A stretch of 64,000 nt of DNA from Dicyema japonicum. Lineage: Eukaryota; Dicyemida; Rhombozoa; Dicyemidae. Position 1 is the stretch's first letter. Every line of letters starts with the position of its first letter. Below the pieces are notes generated by a model. The model was not told the DNA's origin. It saw only the letters and a list, made by a program, of their open reading frames with translations, and did not search any database. The DNA lies in assembly GCA_011109175.1 (NCBI GenBank), contig RDEW01000043.1, forward strand, positions 186,001 through 250,000, in the 5' to 3' direction. Shown in pieces: positions 3,266 to 63,559 of this stretch. The position numbers and the translations under genes are program-made.

Positions 3266-3337
3266 CCCGAGGTAGCTCAGGGGTAGAGTGGGAGACTGTA
3301 GTTCTCTAGGTCCCCGGTTCGAATCCGGGTCTTGGGA
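3266..3337 (+). tRNA. tRNA-Tyr (anticodon GTA), no intron
   Basis: The 72-nt sequence folds into a complete cloverleaf. The acceptor stem is CCCGAGG/TCTTGGG with two G-T pairs, the D stem is GCTC/GAGT, the anticodon stem is GGAGA/TCTCT with loop CTGTAGT (anticodon GTA at 3298-3300), the variable loop has 5 nt, and the T arm is CCCGG-TTCGAAT-CCGGG. The discriminator base is A. Box A (TAGCTCAGGGG) and box B (GGTTCGAATCC) are both good. The anticodon loop is uninterrupted, although eukaryotic tRNA-Tyr genes usually carry an intron after position 37. Confidence 0.93.
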
Positions 3338-8829: not shown

Positions 8830-10755
8830 CGAGGGCGATGCCGTTTATGGATGACTTTATCAGTAGGGAAGATATTCAATGCAACGTTTGTTCCCGGAGT
8901 AACAAGAGAAAGCTTGAGATCCATTGTTTTGATTGTTCCTTGTTCTTCCACCTTGGATGTGTCGGGTTGTCGAGAAAGTCTTTGAAACCTTTGTCTTCTT
9001 GGATTTTCCCCGACTGTTTAAGACCCAAAAAATTTGATTTCCTTACTGGATTTACTAAATCCCTCAATATGTCTGACCTTGTTTCTGGATCGTCCATCGA
9101 TCACCTTACGTCTGAACAGATTCTAATCTTGCGTCGAGGTTACGAATACAGAGACATATTCCTTTGAAGATCCCAAGGTCCGTGAGGGTGGCGGCAGCCG
9201 AGGCTCTTGCCCGAGCAATTGACAGGGCTCCCTTGTCTTTGGAGACCATGGATTGGATTTCCTTATTTCCCTTTCCCTTAATTGCACTCGGATTGGATTT
9301 TAATCGTCGACGAATTTCTACCGCTGCAAAAAAATCTATTCAGTCATTTGAGGATGGGAATCTTTCTATTTCTTCCCTCTCGAGAGTACCTTATCATGGA
9401 AACAAAAAATTTTATTTTTTCAATCAAACCGTTCTTTCAGTAACCCCTGAAGTCATTTCTTTTCTACGTTCTCAGTAAACCCTGAAGTCATTTCTCCTTC
9501 TCCATTGGATCTGAAAGAATTTTTCAATCCCATTGGACTGCCCCATCCCAGTTTGATTTAACGATCTGATGTAATGGCTGGGATCAAATCCTTCCCCCCC
9601 AGACGATAGCGGGGTATTAATGGTTTACTTCCTGGGCATATCAGAGACCTTTCGTCATTCTTAACTTTTGAGACGGGAGATCATCTTGTATCATAGTTAA
9701 CCAAACTTGTAAACCTGTGTACATCCAGGAATATCTCTTTCGTCACCAGTGAACTCTTTTTTTTTCCTTATTGTTACCCTTCTCCAAGCCTGGTGGCGAA
9801 GTCAGGCTTATTGCTGTCGGCAGCCTATTCCAAATACTTGTTTCAAAACTTTCGTGCTGGCGTGTCATCAATGAGCTGTCTTTCGAATTGAAACATGCAC
9901 AATGTTTTTGGCACGTTCCTCTCCTTGCTGCCTCTTTCTCGGAAAGCCTAAAGAAATTCAATATTCTGATCTCCAAGACTATTGAAGAAATTGTGAATAT
10001 AAATTTCGATAAATTGGATTGAAGCAAGCTTTTTACCCTCATATTTGGATATAGGCCTAATTTGTTTTGTGGACGTTTCCTTACCGTCCTTCATGTCCTC
10101 TTTGTCGTGGAACGCGTTACTCATCCGGGACATTCTTCCAGATTTCTGAAAGTCGGCTTTGGGCGACAAAATTGCTAATGGGTTGAAGAGCTGGTCAGTT
10201 GCCTTAGGGGAAACCATCTTGATACACACCTACTGAGAATCTGGACCAACATTCTGTACAAAAATACTCATTCGAACATTATGGAAACAGAAGACATGCA
10301 CCGTAGAGCTTGCATTCTGGTAGTCTCTTCCCCTCACAACTGTGCTTGCCTGAACGCGTTCCTATCATCGTCAATTGTTCCATTCTGAAACAAGACGCCC
10401 TCCGGAATCAGATATTTATCCGTCTCGGGAAAACTTAATTCTATTTCCATTAAAGTTGTGATCCTAGTATTAACTTAAATTTGTATTAATGATTACTGGC
10501 TGTGACCAAGCCAACTGCTATTTTTCAGTTAAGTAACTTAGTTCCAAACAATTGAAATTACTTGTTACATGTCATTGGTATGATAAATGGAGTGTCTCAT
10601 AGTTGTCAAGATCTCTCAAATGTAAATTGAACAAAGCGGAGATTTTCGGTACTCCGTTTGGAAAAAAAGGAATGAGCAAGATATTTTTTACCAACCAAGT
10701 TTTCTAGGAAGTATATTTGTTAGCCATTTTTGGAAGTGAAGAGGAATTTTAAGAN
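8830..10755 (+). mobile_element. Decayed family B LINE copy, 5' part
   Basis: An N-terminal PHD-like finger is readable from 8838 (CNVCSRSNKRK, then FFHLGCVGLSRKSL), although the final Cys pair is altered. The next block from 9164 (IPRSVRVAAAEALARAIDRA) corresponds to residues about 90-110 of the intact copy. Later pieces near 9780-10020 (VRLIAVG..) and 10290-10350 (HRRACILVVSS) follow in element order. Many stops interrupt it. The last ~760 bp recur after the N at 10756. Confidence 0.75.
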
Positions 10756-15119: not shown

Positions 15120-18114
15120 ACATTGATGAAACACGTTGTGTCGTCTGTTCTCGTTGTGTTGCTAAAAGAAGAGGATAAGAAGAGAATAAGAAAGGAAAAT
15201 CAGAAAAGACATGCAGAAAACTGTAAAAGAATATGAGATCTGCACAAAGTGCAACATAATGAACAAAAGAAAGCGGATGATCCATTGCACAGCCTGTTCG
15301 TATGGCTTCCACATGTCCTGTGCCGGAATGACTAAAAGAGCCCTGGCTGCCATTTCCGATTGGCACTGTCGATCTTGTCTCCTACCAGATAATACGACAA
15401 ATCTTCCTACGCTACCTTCTGAACATGTTCCACTAGACCATCAGGAAATACTTGAATTGATCTCCAACCTGACGCACACACGAAGACTCCTGATTAGGAT
15501 CCCCAAAGCTGCCCGTATATCTGTCGCGGACTGCCTATGTGAGTGTATTGAAAGGGCAGTTTCTTCGGACGACTCTGATGATTGGGTACGATTATTTTGC
15601 TTTGCTCCATTCACACTATGCATACCCCATAGGAGGGGGAAAGAGGAGAAATCACTTACGTCATTAGTAAAGGAGAATGTCCACACATTCTTCTCAAAAA
15701 ACCTATTGGCAAACTCAGAAAAGCTCACCTACAAATTTCAAAACCATGAGAAGCCAACATCGACTATCTCGGACACTCAGAGATTAAGAAGCGCGATCCG
15801 TCGAAAACTTTCGGAAGGTGGTATCCGTGCTGCGGTGAGGATCCTTGCAGATCAACAATGTATAATTGAGCCGTCCGAACAGTCCTACGCATCACTTGTT
15901 GAGCGACACCCAAGTCTTCCCAACGACCACCGGGTTCCCCCTTGCCCAGGACAATTACCCAATCTGCTTGTCTCTGAAGAGGACGTAAAAGATGGTATCC
16001 TCTCTTTCGTCCCGAGTAGCAGTGGAGGACTAGATGGGCTCCGTCCGGGTCACATCAAAGATCTCATTGCTCATAACACGGGCAACTCTGGGGTCCGGCT
16101 CGTGTTGGCTATCACCAAACTAATGAACAGGATGCTATCAGGGACACTACCAGAAACAATTCGACACGTAATGTTTTCCGCAAAGTTAATCGCATTCGAC
16201 AAGAAGGGAGGTGGAATACGCCCTATTGCAGTCGGAATGGTCTTCCGTCGGTTGGCATCAAAGCTTGTATGCAGAGCAATCCTACCTACGCTGATAACAC
16301 AGCTGCAACCAACCCAAATAGGGGTCGGCACACCGGGGGGTTGTGAAGCGGCAGTTCATGCTGTCCGAACATTCACCGAAAAGAACGTGAACATTCCTCA
16401 CGTAATCGTCAAAATTGACATTAAAAATGCCTTCAACTCGATACGACGTGATACAATTCTGGAGGATTGCTTCACATACTACCCATCAGTGTACAGCTAT
16501 ATTCATAGTTCGTACGGAAAACCATCCAGTCTGGTACATGGCCAATATTACATTCCATCGTCTTCTGGAGTCCAACAAGGAGACCCACTGGGGCCCGCCT
16601 TGTTCAGCCTGGGAATTGCCCGTATCACAGGATACTGCTCCACTCCTCTGAGAGTATGGTATTTGGATGATTGCACCATGGGCGGCCATCCGAAGGATGT
16701 ACTAGATTGTTTGAAAAGTCTGATAGTACAATTGGAATCCCTATGCCTAACTCTAAACACCAATAAGTGTGAAGTAACCAATTTTGGATTTCCACAGTCT
16801 GAATGGGATCTGATCCTTGGTATGTTCAGAGAGATCATTCCGAAAGCCACAGAAACCAAATCAGAACAACTGGAAATACTTGGATGCCCTCTTACTGATG
16901 CTGGAATCAGTAACACTCTAAGAACAAAAGAACATCAACTAAAAACAACATTCAGACGTCTGGAGATGCTGGACGCACACACCTCCCTATTCCTCCTGAG
17001 AAACGCCTTATCAGCACAGAAACTGAACTACGTTCTTCGGGGGGCACCCTGCTACTTGAAAATGCAACAGCTCGATGCTATCGATTCCCTCTTCCGGAGT
17101 ACTATTGAACGTATCACAAATGTGAAATTTGACGACCAAGGGTGGGACCAAGCGACCCTACCCGTTAGCCTGGGCGGACTGGGAATCCCTTCAACGAAAG
17201 ATCTGGCTTGCCCTGCTTATCTATCCTCTTTGGGCTCCAGCCGACTGCTGGTCAGGATGATTCTCCAACTCCAAACAGAATCATCTGAAATCACAGAGAT
17301 GGAGCATTTGAAGGGGATGATGCCTGAGCAGAAAGATCGTTACAGGACCATCTGCGAGGATAAATATGAGAGGCTTCTGAACCAATCAAACCAACACAGA
17401 CGTGCATGTCTAGTCACTGGAAGATGCGAATCGAGTGGCGCATGGATCAATGCACTCCCAGTTGGCAGTGTCGGGACCCATCTTGACGACGATACTGTCC
17501 GCATCGGCATCTCCACCAGACTTGGACTGGAGATTTGCCGGACCCACAAATGCCGATGTGGCGCAACCGTCGATTGTTATGGACTCCATGCCCTCTCTTG
17601 TCGAAGGAGTGCAGGACGATTCCCAAGACACAAGGCGATCAACGGAATTGTCAAGCGAGCCCTGGAGTCTGCGGGATACCCAGCCATACTAGAACCTGTT
17701 GGTCTGGACAGAGGAGACGGAAAACGTCCCGACGGGATCACAATTTTCCCATTCGAAGAGGGGAAACCTTTGGTCTGGGACGCTACTTGTGTCGACACGC
17801 TTTGCCCGTCCAACATTGTCGGGAGCGCGGTAGACACACTGTATTCCGCGGAAAAAACGATGATGGCAAAGGAGAAGAAGTACGAAGCGCTACGCGACCG
17901 ATTCGCGTTTTATCCGATAGTGGTCGAGACAACTGGAGGAATAAGTGGAAAATCGCTTCGCTTCCTAAAGAAACTTGGACGCTTAGCTACACTAAAAAGC
18001 CACGACGCACGTGAGACCCGGTGGCTACTCCAGTTGATCTCTGTTGCAATCGTGAGAGGCAACGCAACGTCGATAATGTCGGCGGGGTCCACTTTGGATG
18101 GATGGCAGTTTTAA
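15120..18114 (+). mobile_element. Family B LINE, apparently full-length copy
   Basis: This is the whole element around the intact ORF at 15211. The 5' leader (CGTTGTGTTGCTAA, then a purine-rich run ending CAGAAAAGACATGCAGAAAA) is shared with the copy starting near 43740. Compared with the truncated copy at 56890-56992, similarity ends just after the TTTTAA that contains the stop codon. The exact 5' boundary and target-site duplications are not resolved. Confidence 0.8.
15211..18114 (+). CDS. Retrotransposon protein: PHD finger, reverse transcriptase, restriction-like endonuclease
   Basis: An uninterrupted 967-codon ORF with a true ATG. Residues 11-56 form a Cys4-His-Cys3 PHD-type finger (C11, C14, C26, C29, H34, C37, C53, C56). 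The RT domain spans roughly residues 310-520, with RPIAVG (motif 2), motif A IKIDIKNAFNSIRRD near 400, motif B GVQQGDPLGP near 452 and motif C WYLDDCTMGG near 484. The catalytic box is YLDD rather than YADD. Around residues 780-800 a zinc knuckle CRCG-(8)-HALSC precedes the endonuclease pattern KRPDGITIFPF..WDATCVDT (about 840-865), as in restriction-like-endonuclease LINEs. This single protein would do target cleavage and target-primed reverse transcription. It is the only undamaged family B ORF here, so the element may be young or active. Confidence 0.93.
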   Translation: MQKTVKEYEICTKCNIMNKRKRMIHCTACSYGFHMSCAGMTKRALAAISDWHCRSCLLPDNTTNLPTLPSEHVPLDHQEILELISNLTHTRRLLIRIPKAARISVADCLCECIERAVSSDDSDDWVRLFCFAPFTLCIPHRRGKEEKSLTSLVKENVHTFFSKNLLANSEKLTYKFQNHEKPTSTISDTQRLRSAIRRKLSEGGIRAAVRILADQQCIIEPSEQSYASLVERHPSLPNDHRVPPCPGQLPNLLVSEEDVKDGILSFVPSSSGGLDGLRPGHIKDLIAHNTGNSGVRLVLAITKLMNRMLSGTLPETIRHVMFSAKLIAFDKKGGGIRPIAVGMVFRRLASKLVCRAILPTLITQLQPTQIGVGTPGGCEAAVHAVRTFTEKNVNIPHVIVKIDIKNAFNSIRRDTILEDCFTYYPSVYSYIHSSYGKPSSLVHGQYYIPSSSGVQQGDPLGPALFSLGIARITGYCSTPLRVWYLDDCTMGGHPKDVLDCLKSLIVQLESLCLTLNTNKCEVTNFGFPQSEWDLILGMFREIIPKATETKSEQLEILGCPLTDAGISNTLRTKEHQLKTTFRRLEMLDAHTSLFLLRNALSAQKLNYVLRGAPCYLKMQQLDAIDSLFRSTIERITNVKFDDQGWDQATLPVSLGGLGIPSTKDLACPAYLSSLGSSRLLVRMILQLQTESSEITEMEHLKGMMPEQKDRYRTICEDKYERLLNQSNQHRRACLVTGRCESSGAWINALPVGSVGTHLDDDTVRIGISTRLGLEICRTHKCRCGATVDCYGLHALSCRRSAGRFPRHKAINGIVKRALESAGYPAILEPVGLDRGDGKRPDGITIFPFEEGKPLVWDATCVDTLCPSNIVGSAVDTLYSAEKTMMAKEKKYEALRDRFAFYPIVVETTGGISGKSLRFLKKLGRLATLKSHDARETRWLLQLISVAIVRGNATSIMSAGSTLDGWQF

Positions 18115-31039: not shown

Positions 31040-32410
31040 TTAATTTTAATTTAATTAACTACCTCAAGATCACTGGGTCAAAAAGAAAGGCGCAAAAGTT
31101 CCCGAACATCACTTAAATTCTTCGAGTTGTCGAGAGACGGCCTTGATTAAAGAAAGAAATCAACTGATACGGTTATTATGTAAACAGGCAATAATACGAC
31201 CAATGCCGAAACCTGGAAGACCGAGAGATGACCCAGGGTCTTTTAGACCGGTGTCACTGTTCCATGTCAAAAATCCTGGAGAGGCTTGTGCTCGGAGAAT
31301 AAAAGAATTTTTACCAGAGAGGCCTTTTCAACATGGATTCAAAAATGAGAGATCCACGTCTACATACAAACATTGACCGATTTTATTCGAGTCGGATTTG
31401 CAAACAAGCCGAGACACTTAAAAACAGTGCTCTGGTCAATCGACATGCACAAGTCTCGAGGAAGATTCTAGCGAGAAAAATATTTCAATCGGAGATCCCA
31501 GGGAAGCTAAAGCTTTGGATCATCAACTTCCTAAGTGGACGAAGACGCGTGTTGCCTCGGAGGTCTGAAATCAATCTCACGTCTCTTCTCCAACAAAGTC
31601 CTTCAGAATCTCCTTTATCCTGCTTGTTTAACCTCTTTTGGCCGATCTCCCGACTCTTGAATCTTATAATGATGTTCTACTCCTATGCGGATGATCTTGT
31701 GTTGGCTTCGCGAGATCAGGACATCCAGAAGACCACAGAAAGAATACAAATTAACCTGGACAGGCTTAATGCCTGGATAATGGAAAACCGGCTCGTGGTG
31801 AATGCAGAGAAGTCGTTTACGTCACTATTTACCTCTGACAAAAGATTGGGAAGGAAGACAATCACCTTAAAATTAAACAAGGTCGGCATCCCTTTCAACA
31901 GATGTCAAAGGATCTTGGGTGTGACAATTGATATGCATCTCTGTTTGACACCACACGTAGAAAACATTCTATTGAAATGCGAGAAGAAACTGAACGTATT
32001 GAAAAGTTTATCGGGAATATGGAAGAGTGGTACTCACCCGGTCCTGATGAACGTGTACAAACAGTATATCGAGCCATATTTCTCATATGCAAGCGCCTCA
32101 TGGGGACCGTCCATCTATTGGACAAATATGAGGAAAATCGAGGAAATGCAAAAGAGGATTTTCAGAGTAACGGAGCGTTGGATTTGTGAAGATCATCGAA
32201 CCGGACCGACGCCTCTGGTAGCCCTCATGAGACTAGATTCCAGATCACGGGAATGTGGGCATGAAAAATCAGTCAGCCTGTACGTTCATGGACGGGCACG
32301 AGGGAAGAACACTGGACAAAAATGAGGTCGCTGTTAGAATGCATCGGGATCACGTGATAATTAGTTTGGTTTTACCGTGGTCTTGGGTTGTTAAATAAAT
32401 AACTGAGTGA
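31040..32410 (+). mobile_element. Family C LINE, RT region with a 330-codon frame
   Basis: Two frames cover the RT. 31143-31376 has fingers (PMPKPGRPRDDPGSFRPVSL) and FQHGFKNERSTSTY. 31333-32325 holds motif A (SIDMHKSRGRF in shifted text near 31440), damaged motif B near 31600, motif C YADDLVLASRDQD (31684-31722), NRLVVNAEKS, LTPHVENILLKCEKKLNVLK, YSQYIEPYFSYASASWGPS-type and FRVTERWI blocks. The tail is CGGGATCACGTGATAATTAG, then GTTAAATAAATAA near 32395. Best preserved family C copy here, but motif B and the N-terminal half are shifted. Confidence 0.85.
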
Positions 32411-40356: not shown

Positions 40357-42600
40357 TTAGAAATAGTTTAATGTTAGTTTATTAAAATCCCCAAGCTCAG
40401 CGTAGGCCAGATCCAGATTGGAGGCAATCTCCTTGTAAATTTTCTTCTCAGACATCAATTCCTCTAAAAATAAGATTAAGTGTGTTAGTGGTTAACAGGA
40501 ATGATAAATTAGAATAATCCGGGAAACGAATAGTTAATTATTATAATGAATTAATGTCCGCCATTGTAGAATCAAACAATTCTTGCAGTTCTGACAACTT
40601 AGACTTTTCAGTTTTGAGAATTTCTGTTAATAAAAAGTACTGTACTCTCTAGACAGATCACTTCGCTCTCGAGTTTCTTTTTATGGTTAGAAAGAATCCC
40701 ATTTTCATTATTAGACTAAATTAGTGGTTAGAATGGTAAAGTTAGTGAGGATTTATGCAACCTTCCAATCTATCAATATCCTGCTGTCGCTTATTGGACA
40801 CTCTATCGCATTCCGCAGCTTTGTTTTCGCTCTTAATTATTAATTTTAACCAAATAAGCGCTATTGTTCGCATATACCTCATACAACTCTTCCCTCAACT
40901 TCTTTATCGTCGCCTCATATTCCCTCCTCTTTGTTGTAGGCCTAAAATATAGTCAATTGATTTGTTATAGAAACAGGACTAGTAAGGAGCCGTGTTAACA
41001 AGGAAAGGACTCGTTAGAACAGTACCTCATTACTACTAATTTCAAGGGACTTAAGATTATTCCCTACTACTTTTAGCTCTTCTTCTAACTGGATCACCTT
41101 ACTATAATACAAATAAATTTTGATCTCTCTATTAAAGGGAACCGCCGCGGCAAATTACACCACTAACCAGGTTTGACTGTGACTGCAATGCCTTGAGTTT
41201 TACTTCTGAGTCATGTAACTGTTCATTTGTGGTAAGGATTAGTCTGGATCTGCAAAAATACTACCTTTCTTTATTTTCTAGCATAGTTTCTAGTTTATCT
41301 AGAGAATTTTCCATTGTTTTGTTGCGGTTGTTTAACTAAAAGTAAGCGAGCAAATATAAAACACCACTGCTACACCCTGACCATGCGGCGGTTCCCGCAT
41401 TAAATTTACCTTTCAGCTAATTCAAGGCGAGATGTCGCTCTTTCCAAGTCCACTTCGGTCACCATGAGTTTCCGACAAGTCTTGGACTTAATAGAAAAAT
41501 AACCTCGTCGTATTTGTGGTCACTATCGTCGGCAGTCCATTTGACATCCCCCAACTGTTTTTCCAGAGTGAATATTCTCTCTTCATCGTTTGTGGTCCTC
41601 GTTTCAAGTACTTTACGGATTCTGCAAAAGAATTAAGGGTCAGAGTGTTAGCAGTGGTTTTACAAAGGAAATATTAATATACGATAATTATTTCGGTTTG
41701 AATCTCCTGGTATGATTGCTGCAAAGATTTGAAACCACTCTCCAGTTTTTCGTTTAAAATCTCCAGTTTTTCGTTTTTATCGTAGATTACCTTTCTATGA
41801 CTATGATTAGTAGGATTTAGGAGTTGGGAATTACCGCTCAGAATCCTCATATTTTTCAATGTACTCATTGAGTAGATCTGTCTTTTCTTTCAGAGTCGTA
41901 TCGATCGATTCATTGCTTTCATCTAGCATTTGAAGTCTTCTATTCAATGACTGAAGTTCTAATTCTTTCTAAAATAAATAAATCATGTTGTAATAATTAT
42001 TGACAGCAAAAATATATCACGCCAATACATCATAAAGATCTTTTTTTATAAGTTCATTTTCCTTATAAATATTATTAAATTTATCCTCAAATTCATTTCT
42101 CTCATTCTTTAGAGATTCTATCTTATTTTTTATATTTTCCATTGAACTAATTTGCAATTCAATTGATCTACATTTATTCGCAATCTATTGCATTTTAAAG
42201 ATTGGGTTAACCATGCAAAAAAACTAATTATTTTTTAATTTTAATAATAAAAAACAATTTAATAAAATTAACCTCGCTTTGTTCTTTTAAAACATCATTC
42301 AGTTTACTTGAGACCTCGTTATACTTTTGGTCAAGATTTTCGAATTCAATATTCAAACATTTTTCCCGCTTAATTATAGCAGCAATTTCATCATCTTTCT
42401 AAAAAACCCAGATTAAATTAAAATTAAATAAAAATCAAATAATAATAAATCATATATTACTTATAAATTACCTCTTTCAACTGTTGTTCCAAAACCTCAA
42501 CTTTCGATTCAAGTTGATCTGCATTTTCTAGACATTCTTCCTTTTGCTGCTTAATTTCCAGAATTTTCTTTTTAAGAGAATTTAAAGTTGCCTCAGCCAT
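40357..42600 (-). CDS. TPM: Tropomyosin with duplicated alternative exons
   Basis: Tropomyosin is the coiled-coil dimer that runs along actin filaments. Minus-strand exons, matched to vertebrate exons: 42472-42600 (1; MAEATLNSLKKKILEIKQQK), 42273-42398 (2), 42029-42184 (possible alternative first exon), 41835-41968 (3; LQSLNRRLQML..YEDSER), 41683-41800 and 41504-41621 (two copies of 4, each 118 nt), 41410-41480 and 41265-41335 (two of 5, 71 nt), 41168-41243 and 41026-41101 (two of 6, 76 nt), 40878-40941 (7), 40762-40831 and 40646-40715 (two of 8, 70 nt), 40541-40623 and 40357-40463 (alternative ends). Canonical blocks include DLERATSRLELAE, LEEELKVVGNNLKSLE and SEKKIYKEIASNLDLAYAEL. Canonical choices give 297 residues once one surplus G in exon 7 (near 40923) is discounted. 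The alternative splicing is inferred from exon equality, not observed. Confidence 0.93.
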
Positions 42601-58881: not shown

Positions 58882-59034
58882 CGAGTTTATTTATACCTTT
58901 TATATTTAATTTTATAAATTTTTTACTAACTTTAAATTAAATAAAAATTAATATATATTTTCAATTCTTCATTTTTTCGTGATTAATATTTTAATTTTAA
59001 GTTTTTAACTATTATTGTAAGACAACATAGAATC

Positions 59035-61107
59035 ATGACTGAGAAGAAGCTCTGGTCTCAGCCGCTGCTGGTGACAAACTACCAAAAACATATAAAGAAC
59101 CACCTATATACATTGCCAGCTAATATGACTATACAAGACCTATGGGATCAGACCAAAAGCATTATTTGCCTTGCCGCAAACACCCACCTTGGAGTGAGAC
59201 GGCAGACAACCGGAAATATGTCACTTGGCCATCCAGACTCCTTATTACTGGCAAAACAACAACGAGAAATATGGATACAGAGTCTAAACACGACGGATAT
59301 ACATATCAAAAACAAACTACGAACTGAACGAAATATTATCAAGAGAAGAATCATGAAGCTTAATAATGAACACTCGAAGGATGTCTTCCTATCACATCTT
59401 AGAGAGCTGGAGCAACTAAAGGACAATGCACAAATGTTCGCTGCAGTCCGACTAATGCGAGGAAAGAAAAAAGCGACAGTACATGTTATGGATGGGAAGG
59501 GGAAACTTATCTTAAAACCAGACGAACAGATCGAATTGATTGCTGCCCATTTTGAAAAACTGTTCAATGCGAACGGCCAAGAACTGGCCCCTTTCATCGG
59601 AGAACCGCGGATGCTGGAAACAATTATCACATCTAAGGAAGTTCAGAGTGCGTGCAGTAAGCTAAAGAATCACAGGAGCGCTGGACCAGACAACATCCCT
59701 CCCGAACTGCTGAAATATGGACCTATGCGTCTATTCGAAACCATTGCGACATTGTTAAATGGAATGTTTACATCCAACTCTGTCCTACCACTGGGGAAAG
59801 GGACATTGATACCTATACAAAAGCCTAACAAACCAAAGGGACCACTAGAAAGCCTACGCCCAGTCATATTGTTAAACACATTACGAAAAGTTCTTGCATC
59901 TGTTGCTTTGGACCGCTTAAAACATCCTGCAGGAAATTACCTATCAGCATGCCATAGTGGATTTCGTGAAGGAAGGTCGACAGCGGACATTCTGTGGAGC
60001 CACAGGTGGCGGTGTGCAACGGCTCAAAGATACAAAAATGCCACGACCATCCTGGGGATCGATATGTCAAGAGCTTTCGACACCATTAGCCGACACAAGC
60101 TAATGGTTGTCCTTCATCAATTTGTGGACCAATCATTGCTACGGATAATCAGAGTACTTCTCTCAAGTACTGAACTGTCAGTCCGAATTGGGAGAACTCT
60201 ATCCCGACCATTCAAAACTACAATCGGCACTCCTCAGGGAGACTCCCTCTCCCCCTTACTATTTGTGATATATCTCGAAGCTGCACTAAAGGATCTAAGA
60301 ACTTGCTATGAAGGAAAAATAAACGAAGTCGTATACGCGGATGATGTGGATTTTATATCCGAGGATACAGAAGCTCTCACACATCTGCTGGAAAATGCAC
60401 CGGACAAACTGGGGGAATGGTTCCTCATCGTTAACCGGGCCAAAACGGAAATCACGGAAATCAAAAGAATGGACAACATCCTTAATGAACGTTGGCGACA
60501 TGTTAATAAGCTTGGATCCCTACTGGGGGACACAGAAGACATCATCAAAAGGAAAACACTTGCAGGAGTAGCAATGCGAAAACTCAAAAAGGGATGGCTG
60601 AAAGGACTAGATGTCAATCTGCGGATACGCATGTACAATGCATTTGTGAAACCGATACTGACATACAATGCTGGTACTTGGGCCTGTACAGGTGCGGAAT
60701 CAATGGCTCTCGATGGGTTCCACAGAAAACAGCTTAGAGTATTATTTGGCATGCAGTGGCCAGCCAGAATCTCGAATACCGGTATTTACAAAAAATGCAA
60801 GAGTAGGCCTCTAAGCCTGGAAATCACTGACGCCCGGTGGAGACTGTTTGGTCACGTACTACGCATGGATCTTGCTGCCCCGGCTAATGTGGCGATGGAG
60901 GACCATTTCATGTTCGAGGGCAAATGCTTCCGTGGCAGACCAAGGATGACCCTACCTATCATGCTGCACAAAGACCTCCAAAGGATGAAGAAATGCCTAA
61001 AGACGGGAGACGATCTGGACATGCTGAGATCGACTGCGTGTAACCGTGGAGGATGGAAGAGGCTAACTAATAACATTGTTTCTTGTATTGCACATGCTTT
61101 GCTATAA
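59035..61107 (+). CDS. Reverse transcriptase of the truncated family A LINE
   Basis: An open frame of 690 codons. Residues 1-170 are the linker between endonuclease and RT. RT motifs: LIPIQKPNKPKGPLESLRPV near 260, motif A ILGIDMSRAFDTISR near 341, motif B GTPQGDSLSPLLFVIYLEAA near 400, motif C VYADDVDFIS near 432. A C-terminal block follows (WRLFGHVLRMD near 602, FRGRPRMTLP near 633) ending MSCIAHALL-like at 61107. The start codon is chimeric: A and T come from the target-site duplication and G from the element, so translation start is accidental. All catalytic residues are intact. Confidence 0.9.
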   Translation: MTEKKLWSQPLLVTNYQKHIKNHLYTLPANMTIQDLWDQTKSIICLAANTHLGVRRQTTGNMSLGHPDSLLLAKQQREIWIQSLNTTDIHIKNKLRTERNIIKRRIMKLNNEHSKDVFLSHLRELEQLKDNAQMFAAVRLMRGKKKATVHVMDGKGKLILKPDEQIELIAAHFEKLFNANGQELAPFIGEPRMLETIITSKEVQSACSKLKNHRSAGPDNIPPELLKYGPMRLFETIATLLNGMFTSNSVLPLGKGTLIPIQKPNKPKGPLESLRPVILLNTLRKVLASVALDRLKHPAGNYLSACHSGFREGRSTADILWSHRWRCATAQRYKNATTILGIDMSRAFDTISRHKLMVVLHQFVDQSLLRIIRVLLSSTELSVRIGRTLSRPFKTTIGTPQGDSLSPLLFVIYLEAALKDLRTCYEGKINEVVYADDVDFISEDTEALTHLLENAPDKLGEWFLIVNRAKTEITEIKRMDNILNERWRHVNKLGSLLGDTEDIIKRKTLAGVAMRKLKKGWLKGLDVNLRIRMYNAFVKPILTYNAGTWACTGAESMALDGFHRKQLRVLFGMQWPARISNTGIYKKCKSRPLSLEITDARWRLFGHVLRMDLAAPANVAMEDHFMFEGKCFRGRPRMTLPIMLHKDLQRMKKCLKTGDDLDMLRSTACNRGGWKRLTNNIVSCIAHALL

Positions 61108-61893: not shown

Positions 61894-63559
61894 CAGTCGA
61901 CCCCGTATTGGGGCACCAAGTGCCCCAAAAAGCGGGGGTGCCCCAAAAACAGGGGTTTAATAAAACAGAGATTTTAAACATCAAAAATCAATTATAGAAA
62001 AATAATCAGTTAATTTATCCCAGTTATCCTTTTACTTCTTACATTTTTCATAAAATTAAGTCGAAAATCGTAAAATTCTTTGAGCATTTCAGGAGATATG
62101 TAAAAAATTTTCTTCTCTAGCTGATCAAGAGAATCTTGCGTTTCTCTTTAGAATTGTTTCCATGTTATTGTTTTCTAAACCTTCGTTGTAAATATTATCA
62201 ACGAATTCGTCACTTTCCCCATTCAATGTTTCGTTTACGGCATTGTTGATCATTTCTTCTGTAATGGTATCTTCAATTTTTACGGAATCACGAATCTTTT
62301 CAATTTGATTCCAACAATTAAATATTAAACTTGGATCAAGTTTTTCCCAGCTTTTAGAAATTAGCAGAATTACATGACGAAGGTTTATTTTGTTTATCAA
62401 CCGTTTGAATTCATCATCATCCTCCTCAAAACACAAATACTGAATCAGATAATTTGAGTAATAATCTTTAAAGGTCTTGATAATTCCCATATCCAATGGT
62501 TGCAAATACGGTGTTGTATTTTTTGGCAAAAATAAAAACTCAATATTTGAGCATTCAATAGTTTTATGACATCCCGCATTATCAAGCAATATTAATACTT
62601 TTCTGTTGATTGTATAAAATCTTTCATTTATCCGAGTCAACCAGCTCATAAAAATATTTCCAGTCATCCATGCATTTTTAGAGGATGAATATGAAATTCC
62701 AAAATCTTTCACATTGAAATTTTTGAGACATCGAGGGTTTTTAAATTTTCCAACAATCAATGGCTCAAGTTTTTCCCCCATGGAATTGCAACAAAGAAGT
62801 ACAGTGACTCTTTCTTTTCCCTGTTTAAAGCCAAAAGTATCGTCATTTATTCCGACAAACGACTTTCGTGGAGTCCTTTTTATATAAAGAGCAGTTTCAT
62901 CACAATTAAAAACATTTTGTCTTCCATATTGAATAATTTTCTCATCAAGAATTTTAAAAAACTCATTGATGTAAGTCAAGTCACATGAATTTTTTTCTCC
63001 ACAAATTGATTTAAATTTCAGTTCATGTCGCTTTTTAAATCTGTCAAGCCAGCCGTTTGAAGCTTTGAAAGTATCAAATCCAATTTTTGAAGCCGTATAT
63101 AAGGCAATTTTCTTTATGAAAGGACCTGATATTGGAACCTTATCTTCGCGTAGTTTCTGAAATATTTCAAAAACTTGATCATCGAATTTAGATTTCTCAC
63201 AATAAGGCATAGGATCCTCATCCGTGTTTACAGTTCCTTGTTCAAGAAAAGGTACAATTGTTTTTTTTATTCGCGAAATCATGCCTTTACTAGTTTTGTA
63301 TTTTTTAATTATCTGTCTTTCAGATAATTTGTTCTTCAATATCAATTTAATATATAATTAATTTTTTTATTAATAAAATATAATTTATTTTATTATAATT
63401 ATTCCCACAATTTTATAGTGCCCCAAAATTTCCATATTTTTTATCGATTTTCCATTTTACTCTGCCAAAATGTTGGCCAAAAAAATGCCCAAAATGCGGG
63501 GGTGCCCCAAAATCCGAGGGTGCCCCCCTTGGGGTCTGCCTCAATTCGGGGTCGGACTG
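61894..63559 (-). mobile_element. Tigger/pogo DNA transposon, both ends present
   Basis: 1666 bp. The ends are inverted repeats: left CAGTCGACCCCGTATTGGGG, right (reverse complement) CAGTCCGACCCCGAATTGAG. TA dinucleotides at 61892-61893 and 63560-63561 are the target duplication. Subterminal regions on both sides repeat GGGGTGCCCCAAAA. One transposase ORF lies inside on the minus strand. It sits within the RT of a family A LINE. Confidence 0.93.
62125..63345 (-). CDS. Tigger/pogo transposase
   Basis: A 406-codon open frame. A helix-turn-helix at the start (LSERQIIKKYKTSKGMISRI) is followed by a CENP-B-like DNA-binding region (WLDRFKKRH) and the DDE_1 core: VFNCDETALYIKR (first Asp), KVLILLDNAGCHKTIE (second Asp) and [19 protein letters not shown] (third Asp, 29 residues after the second), a DDD triad typical of pogo/Tigger. 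The C-terminus is acidic. The frame opens at a TTG; no ATG precedes codon 22 before an upstream in-frame stop near 63360, so the natural start may lie across an intron or be lost. The triad is intact. Confidence 0.92.
   Translation of the reverse strand: MILKNKLSERQIIKKYKTSKGMISRIKKTIVPFLEQGTVNTDEDPMPYCEKSKFDDQVFEIFQKLREDKVPISGPFIKKIALYTASKIGFDTFKASNGWLDRFKKRHELKFKSICGEKNSCDLTYINEFFKILDEKIIQYGRQNVFNCDETALYIKRTPRKSFVGINDDTFGFKQGKERVTVLLCCNSMGEKLEPLIVGKFKNPRCLKNFNVKDFGISYSSSKNAWMTGNIFMSWLTRINERFYTINRKVLILLDNAGCHKTIECSNIEFLFLPKNTTPYLQPLDMGIIKTFKDYYSNYLIQYLCFEEDDDEFKRLINKINLRHVILLISKSWEKLDPSLIFNCWNQIEKIRDSVKIEDTITEEMINNAVNETLNGESDEFVDNIYNEGLENNNMETILKRNARFS

Follow-up and report, generated by a model that had tools for sequence, protein, structure and literature searches.

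Organization of the tropomyosin gene

The window analyzed here, a stretch of 64,000 nucleotides of the Dicyema japonicum genome, carries a tropomyosin gene on its minus strand between positions 40357 and 42600. The exons and intronic elements discussed below are all located on that strand and given as window positions. No second tropomyosin locus was found in the assembly, which was searched over 64,672,829 bases in 191 contigs. The Tropomyosin profile PF00261 gave three matches in the assembly at E 0.001, all of them at this locus, and a 218-residue query made of exons 1 to 6C gave six matches here and, in other parts of the assembly, three weak matches (E 0.0016, 0.096, and 0.32). The latter were taken for general coiled coil rather than for tropomyosin.

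Exons were placed by scoring each copy against reference tropomyosins at its own position and at all other offsets. A search with the canonical form of the protein returned five relatives among 2425 candidates, none of them close, of which four are unnamed and one is from Octopus vulgaris. Three of the five, P0002, P0003, and P0005, served as references, P0004 was left unscored, and P0001, which has a longer start but otherwise equals P0003, was omitted. The gene opens with exon 1a (42472-42600; 129 nt, 43 amino acids; offset rank 1/247), followed by exon 2 (42273-42398; 126 nt; rank 4/243). A probable alternative first exon, exon 1b (42029-42142; rank 8/247, shuffle p 0.001), starts with an ATG at 42142, runs over 38 codons, and ends at the donor GTATTG. 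Its placement between exons 2 and 3 corresponds to the usual second-start site of tropomyosin genes, and exon 1b is likely a second first exon. Exon 3 (41835-41968; 134 nt; rank 1/241) and exon 7 (40878-40941; 64 nt) are both present as single copies.

Five exons are doubled, one copy of each being canonical (C) and the other divergent (D); the copies are written 4C and 4D or, in combinations, C4 and D4. Exon 4 is found at 41683-41800 (4D) and 41504-41621 (4C), each of 118 nt, exon 5 at 41410-41480 (5C) and 41265-41335 (5D), each of 71 nt, and exon 6 at 41168-41243 (6D) and 41026-41101 (6C), each of 76 nt. Beyond exon 7, exon 8 is represented by 8C (40762-40831) and 8D (40646-40715), both of 70 nt and running from phase 0 to phase 1. 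The exon 9 pair consists of alternative last exons with differing 3' ends, 9D (40541-40623), which has its own stop, and 9C (40357-40463). A sequence-only reading of this DNA had described exons 4, 5, and 6 as pairs of equal length and equal phase. Its coordinates, lengths (118/118, 71/71, and 76/76), and phases are all borne out, and each of the six copies has AG before it and GT after it. Its list of doubled exons was real as far as it went and incomplete, as exons 8 and 9 are also doubled and exon 1b likely adds a further alternative. Throughout, the gene is ungapped, heptad-continuous, and of canonical exon sizes, the exceptions being exon 7, exon 1a, whose start adds five residues to the 38 that exon 1 has in long tropomyosins, and exon 9C, which extends eight residues beyond the canonical end.

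The order of the copies along the transcript is D4, then C4-C5, D5-D6, C6, exon 7, C8, D8-D9, and C9. Copies of the same kind thus adjoin and form alternating C and D blocks. The introns inside the blocks are very short, with 23 nt between 4C and 5C, 21 nt between 5D and 6D, and 22 nt between 8D and 9D. The gaps between the two copies of pairs 4, 5, 6, 8, and 9 are of 61, 74, 66, 46, and 77 nt, respectively, the last one being counted from the 9D stop to 9C. A mean intron length of 38.2 bp is reported for the 67.5-Mb D. japonicum assembly (PMC6736024), and a median of 27 bp for Dicyema sp., in which about two thirds of introns are given as shorter than 30 bp (PMC6543705). By these values, the block-internal introns are ordinary for dicyemids, whereas the introns between copies are long.

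Canonical and divergent copies

The two copies of each pair differ strongly at the protein level. C-D identity amounts to 7/40 residues for exon 4, 5/24 for exon 5, 7/26 for exon 6, 5/23 for exon 8, and 7/27 for exon 9 (6/27 when the residue of the 8D junction is used), giving a range of 18-27% with shuffle p values of 0.001-0.022. Against the three reference proteins, 4C, 5C, 6C, 8C, and 9C each score best at their own position (ranks 1/245, 1/261, 1/259, 1/262, and 1/258). The placing of the D copies is good for D8 (1/262) and for D9, which ranks 1/258 with the residue of the 8C junction and 2/258 with that of the 8D junction; it is fair for D6 (3/259), weak for D5 (13/261), and absent for D4 (37/245). 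The identification of D4 and D5 as tropomyosin exons is accordingly a putative one made from length, phase, and location, their sequences being inseparable from other coiled coil.

The D copies are coding-like, as they combine open frames with a hydrophobic core in the register of the C copies. All five D exons are open, which none of 20,000 base shuffles of their sequences reproduced. Over exons 4-6, 8, and 9, hydrophobic residues occupy 29/40 of the a/d positions in the C copies, the other six registers reaching at most 19/39, and 27/40 in the D copies, for which the other six registers reach at most 19/40. The heptad, shuffle, and first placing tests were run with exon 9D begun with the residue of the 8C junction. 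The earlier statement that the tropomyosin heptad pattern is kept in the copies agrees with these counts. Scored against PF00261, for which the curated cut-off is 38.6 bits, the C form reaches 174.1 bits and the D form 65.3 bits, the latter value including the shared exons 1-3 and 7. When the D form was used as a protein query, with the shared exons 1-3 as part of it, none of 3089 candidates proved to be a relative.

Reading frame and exon choice

Pairs 4, 5, and 6 can be combined in 64 ways if each pair contributes either copy, both copies, or none, and all 64 were translated. Every choice of one copy from each pair stays open through exon 6 (8/8), whereas every choice including both copies of at least one pair stops before exon 7 (37/37). 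Among the choices that skip at least one pair with no double inclusion, 9/19 are open. As a consequence, double inclusion is forbidden and mixtures of C and D copies are allowed. Mixed choices such as C4-D5 stay in frame, and the frame alone is therefore without power to enforce co-ordination. By length, phase, and splice sites, the copies of the four internal pairs (4, 5, 6, and 8) probably represent mutually exclusive exons, a reading that is well supported. The mutually exclusive use put forward from the letters of the sequence is in this way strengthened by the frame logic.

The canonical tropomyosin exon 7 has 63 nt. The exon 7 found here is one base longer, and the entering frame meets a TGA, so that the assembled frame stops within the exon. 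An inner AG would give an in-frame exon of 51 nt. Downstream, 8C, 8D, 9C, and 9D keep canonical lengths and phases. Three readings are conceivable, namely a surplus base in the assembly, a genuine change of very recent date, or use of the inner AG. Because all downstream exons are canonical in length and phase, an assembly slip or the use of the inner AG is favored.

Complementary sequences in the introns

Two stems can be drawn between introns of the exon 4-6 region. Stem I joins a 5' arm in the 4D-4C intron (41637-41664) to a 3' arm in the 5C-5D intron (41354-41383). Stem II, which has 12 bp and is G+C-rich, joins a 5' arm in the same 5C-5D intron (41385-41396) to a 3' arm in the 6D-6C intron (41137-41148). 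The 5' arm of stem I contains the motif TGCTAAC, the likely branch point of exon 4C. In the computed fold, the likely branch A of this motif is bulged, a neighboring A sharing the pair about equally.

Among all duplexes in a scan of the 2.44-kb region with 32-nt windows, stem I comes first (-37.7 kcal/mol) and a duplex with stem II as its core second (-31.0 kcal/mol), the next distinct duplex outside the stem arms being at -25.4 kcal/mol. In windowed dinucleotide shuffles of the introns, neither stem I (0/2000) nor stem II (0/2000) is reached (the best values to be matched in this windowed test being -37.9 and -33.6). When whole introns are shuffled, 0/2000 reach the value of stem I and 25/2000 that of stem II. 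The same spacing was also placed elsewhere in the window on both strands, including over transposable elements. Of 2972 windowed placements, 2 match stem I, 2 match stem II, and none matches both, a single one having both duplexes at -28 or better; with whole introns, 6/1995 placements are as strong as stem I and 38/1995 as strong as stem II. Among 120 intron or flank pairs of the gene, the 4D-4C intron with the 5C-5D intron is foremost (z -6.5, 0/300 shuffles) and the 5C-5D intron with the 6D-6C intron, which holds stem II, is third (z -2.9, 4/300 shuffles). Second place goes to two 5' introns that form an A+T-rich pair (z -3.0, 3/300 shuffles). An ungapped inverted-repeat search placed neither stem among the longest 25 of 103 pairs.

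A mobile-element origin of the arms is not supported, the searched arm of each stem not being repeated in the genome. The 3' arm of stem I has one occurrence at up to three mismatches in 64.67 Mb, and the 5' arm of stem II has one exact occurrence and eight more places at two mismatches; one arm was searched per stem, with a search in which absence of a match need not mean rarity.

Along the transcript, the arms follow each other in the order I-5', II-5', I-3', and II-3', two bases separating II-5' from I-3'. The arms are interleaved, and a nested fold can therefore hold one stem only. When 41834-41026 is folded by computation, stem I is the dominant structure, present from the moment its 3' arm has been synthesized. 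When this 3' arm is masked, the pairs of stem II take probabilities of 0.98 to 1.0, and forcing stem II costs about 10 kcal/mol relative to stem I. The distance from the D4 donor to the D5 acceptor falls from 347 nt to about 38 nt with stem I, and that from the C5 donor to the C6 acceptor falls from 308 nt to about 49 nt with stem II. These shortened distances, of about 40-50 nt, are near the dicyemid mean intron. The 5' arm of stem II can also close on itself by a 6-bp hairpin, ATGCGG/CCGCAT, at 41400-41383 on the minus strand, a possible third state.

Corresponding stems for skipping D4 or C6 were searched for and none was found, all four tests being weaker than the shuffle mean. In the exon 8-9 region, two candidate duplexes were considered. 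The first pairs exon 8C with the 9D-9C intron and would loop out D8D9 (-24.0; 0/500 shuffles), and the second pairs the end of exon 7 with the 8C-8D intron and would loop out C8 (-22.7; 2/500 shuffles). At other places in the window, 95/1484 and 65/1484 placements, respectively, equal them in strength, and 12 of 1484 match both candidates jointly. With introns alone, exon 8-9 stems show nothing unusual (187/500 and 254/500 shuffles). These duplexes are not claimed because they require coding sequence and because their strength is ordinary in the window.

A proposed splicing switch

It is probable, in our judgment, that the gene encodes two tropomyosins, with C4-C5-C6-7-C8-C9 as the canonical and D4-D5-D6-7-D8-D9 as the divergent body, and that exons 4-6 each enter a transcript in one copy only, the copies being chosen together by the two competing stems. 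The starting points, namely the exons, their phases, the frame logic, the copy order, and the complementarity, are directly observed. As the C and D labels come from protein comparison, they are independent of the stems. Stem I would pair the 4D-4C intron with the 5C-5D intron and loop out C4C5. It would at the same time cover the likely branch point of 4C, hindering this exon, and draw the D4 donor near the D5 acceptor, favoring the D4-D5 junction. Stem II would pair the 5C-5D intron with the 6D-6C intron, loop out D5D6, and draw the C5 donor near the C6 acceptor, favoring C5-C6. We infer from this arrangement that splicing uses the stems and that the choice at exon 4 is tied to the choices at exons 5 and 6.

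As the stem of greater stability, with arms that are transcribed earlier, stem I may make the D form the default; a factor holding stem I open would then yield the C form. The stems account neither for a preference of C4 to D4 when stem II is formed nor for the skipping of C6 in the D form. Co-ordination of exons 8 and 9 with the 5' half of the gene is a guess made from the block order. The sequence-only reading had credited the gene with a large isoform capacity. This was probably an overstatement, since two co-ordinated forms, and not all mixtures, are what the block order and the paired introns indicate.

More tentatively, and with a confidence that falls just short of even, the gene may be seen as two interleaved tropomyosins in which crossed competing stems, laid across blocks of neighboring pairs, switch exons 4, 5, and 6 as a unit. 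The same stems would also let a genome of miniaturized introns skip more than 300 nt by folding the intron to about 40-50 nt. To the general question of how a gene links its choices at several alternative exon sites, the anatomy of this gene suggests an answer, with alternating blocks of copies and crossed stems looping out whole blocks. Exon skipping could also remain available to an animal with miniaturized introns if folding brings a long intron down to a short one.

Alternative explanations

The pairs 4-6 could be chosen independently, in up to eight mixtures, by splice-site strength and protein factors, double inclusions being frame-shifted and removed and the complementarities being incidental or modulating one junction. 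The frame results are those expected from such a scheme, with all one-of-each choices open and all double inclusions closed, and muscle myosin heavy chain genes with several clusters are thought to use many, not all, combinations (PMC3912159). Independent choice nevertheless leaves unexplained the alternating blocks with their 21-23 nt internal introns, as well as the presence of two exceptional stems exactly across C4C5 and D5D6, and we consider it unlikely, though far from negligible. The same two stems could serve the formation of circular RNAs by back-splicing of C4C5 or D5D6 instead of exon choice. Complementary introns do flank both two-exon blocks, and pairing of flanking introns has been linked with circular RNAs (PMC11802352). 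This function, which would be compatible with a stem-driven choice of exons, explains neither the interleaving of the arms nor the C/D block order and appears very improbable as their sole role.

Two further explanations concern the coding capacity of the gene. The D exons might be degenerate relics or rarely spliced decoys, the canonical form alone being at work. Their low identity to the C copies, the placing of D4 and D5, which sequence does not achieve, and the empty protein search with the D form would all fit. Decay is difficult to reconcile with four internal pairs that match exactly in length and phase and have splice sites throughout, and the frames left open by none of the shuffles together with the in-register core argue for selection, which makes relics improbable. 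Finally, with a recent pseudogene or an assembly error at exon 7, every transcript passing through the 64-nt exon would stop early and splicing would hardly matter. The length of exon 7 and the TGA in its entering frame speak for this, whereas 8C, 8D, 9C, and 9D are exact in length, phase, and core residues, as would be the case after an assembly slip or a very young change, and the inner AG offers an in-frame alternative. Little credence is given to this explanation. The co-ordinated choice of exons 4-6 by competing stems remains the reading that we prefer.

Genomic and biological context

The remainder of the window contains retroelement sequences. Reverse-transcriptase open reading frames (PF00078) are found on the plus strand at 15190-18114, 58987-61107, 342-1622, and 31303-32325; the first also encodes an N-terminal PHD finger, and the last scores under the curated cut-off. 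The retroelement load of D. japonicum has been described (PMC6736024), and the load of this genome, together with the size of the assembly and the very short introns, fits a dicyemid. On the minus strand, 62125-63357 is an uninterrupted open frame of 410 amino acids with DDE_1 endonuclease and Tc5 DNA-binding domains. A tRNA-Tyr (gta) was detected by ARAGORN at 3266-3337 on the plus strand, with an Rfam tRNA at the same place, and the lone N of the window stands at position 10755.

Innexins gave 28 exon-wise matches in the genome. For the one that was searched, 1041 candidates yielded three relatives with E values of 0.001 or better, each labeled Octopus sinensis and with 50-54% identity, in a search that sees only proteins sharing exact words. 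This suggests that the innexins labeled Octopus sinensis may be dicyemid contigs in that octopus assembly. A literature search for dicyemid contamination of an octopus assembly found nothing. If such contigs are indeed present, the Octopus sinensis assembly would be a possible source of a second dicyemid tropomyosin.

The presence of so elaborate a tropomyosin gene had been presented as unexpected in an animal without a conventional muscle layer. The surprise is tempered by the troponins reported in dicyemids (PMC6543705). The troponin profile PF00992 found no match in this genome, and the control was likewise without a match, so that this result counts neither for nor against troponins. The gene bears on the contractile or cytoskeletal diversity kept by a tiny parasite of octopuses that has roughly 30 cells and no muscle.

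Comparison with known systems

Several elements of the proposed switch are already known, namely competing stems in a single cluster, multiple doubled exons in tropomyosin genes, the exon 6B hairpin, and opposite exon sets in Mhc. In a literature search, no account was found of stems looping out blocks of exons from two neighboring pairs, Irimia 2010, the main paper on tropomyosin duplication, lying outside its scope. The search did not find any dicyemid tropomyosin gene structure either, the word "tropomyosin" occurring once in the sole paper that also contains "Dicyema".

As in human TPM1, Drosophila Tm1/Tm2, and C. elegans lev-11, isoforms would be produced through alternative exons, starts, and last exons (PMC9741552, PMC10512467). 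The sequence-only reading had noted that vertebrate and arthropod tropomyosins are not known to have all of exons 4, 5, and 6 duplicated together. Several doubled exons in one tropomyosin gene have precedent, as C. elegans lev-11 is credited with six events of exon duplication in addition to the shared N-terminal event and the human tropomyosin genes with another four (PMC9741552). Compared with other metazoan tropomyosins, the peculiarity here is that exons 4, 5, 6, 8, and 9 are all doubled, by copies of low identity arranged in alternating blocks. A highly divergent alternative exon is also reported in C. elegans, in which exon 7c of LEV-11U is 17.0 and 19.2% identical to E7a and E7b, and the LEV-11U isoform is described as binding actin poorly (PMC10512467). 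LEV-11U has one such divergent exon, whereas the dicyemid gene has five. In chicken beta-tropomyosin, the alternative exon 6B is reported to be modulated by a hairpin (PMC9198270), whereas the dicyemid gene would rely on competing long-range stems across blocks.

Co-ordination between clusters has its own parallels. Scallop catch and striated muscles are reported to use opposite sets over three clusters of Mhc, 2a, 3b, 11b versus 2b, 3a, 11a (PMC3912159), and in human CUX1, the clusters are interleaved and comprise two-exon sets (PMC5740500). In the accessible parts of these papers, no paired-intron mechanism is described for scallop Mhc or CUX1, and the term "RNA structure" is absent from the main text on CUX1 (PMC3912159, PMC5740500).

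A mechanistic likeness is found in insects, in which bidirectional competing RNA pairing is described for srp, RIC-3, MRP1, and the exon 4 and 9 clusters of Dscam (PMC6071210, PMC8042237). There, as here, complementary intron pairs lie around alternative exons, and in srp, a pseudoknot is reported to impede joint formation (PMC6071210). The insect systems are documented by conservation and minigene evidence, whereas the dicyemid stems are known here from the sequence of one genome. The insect stems are described as acting within one exon cluster, whereas each dicyemid stem spans two exons from two adjacent pairs.
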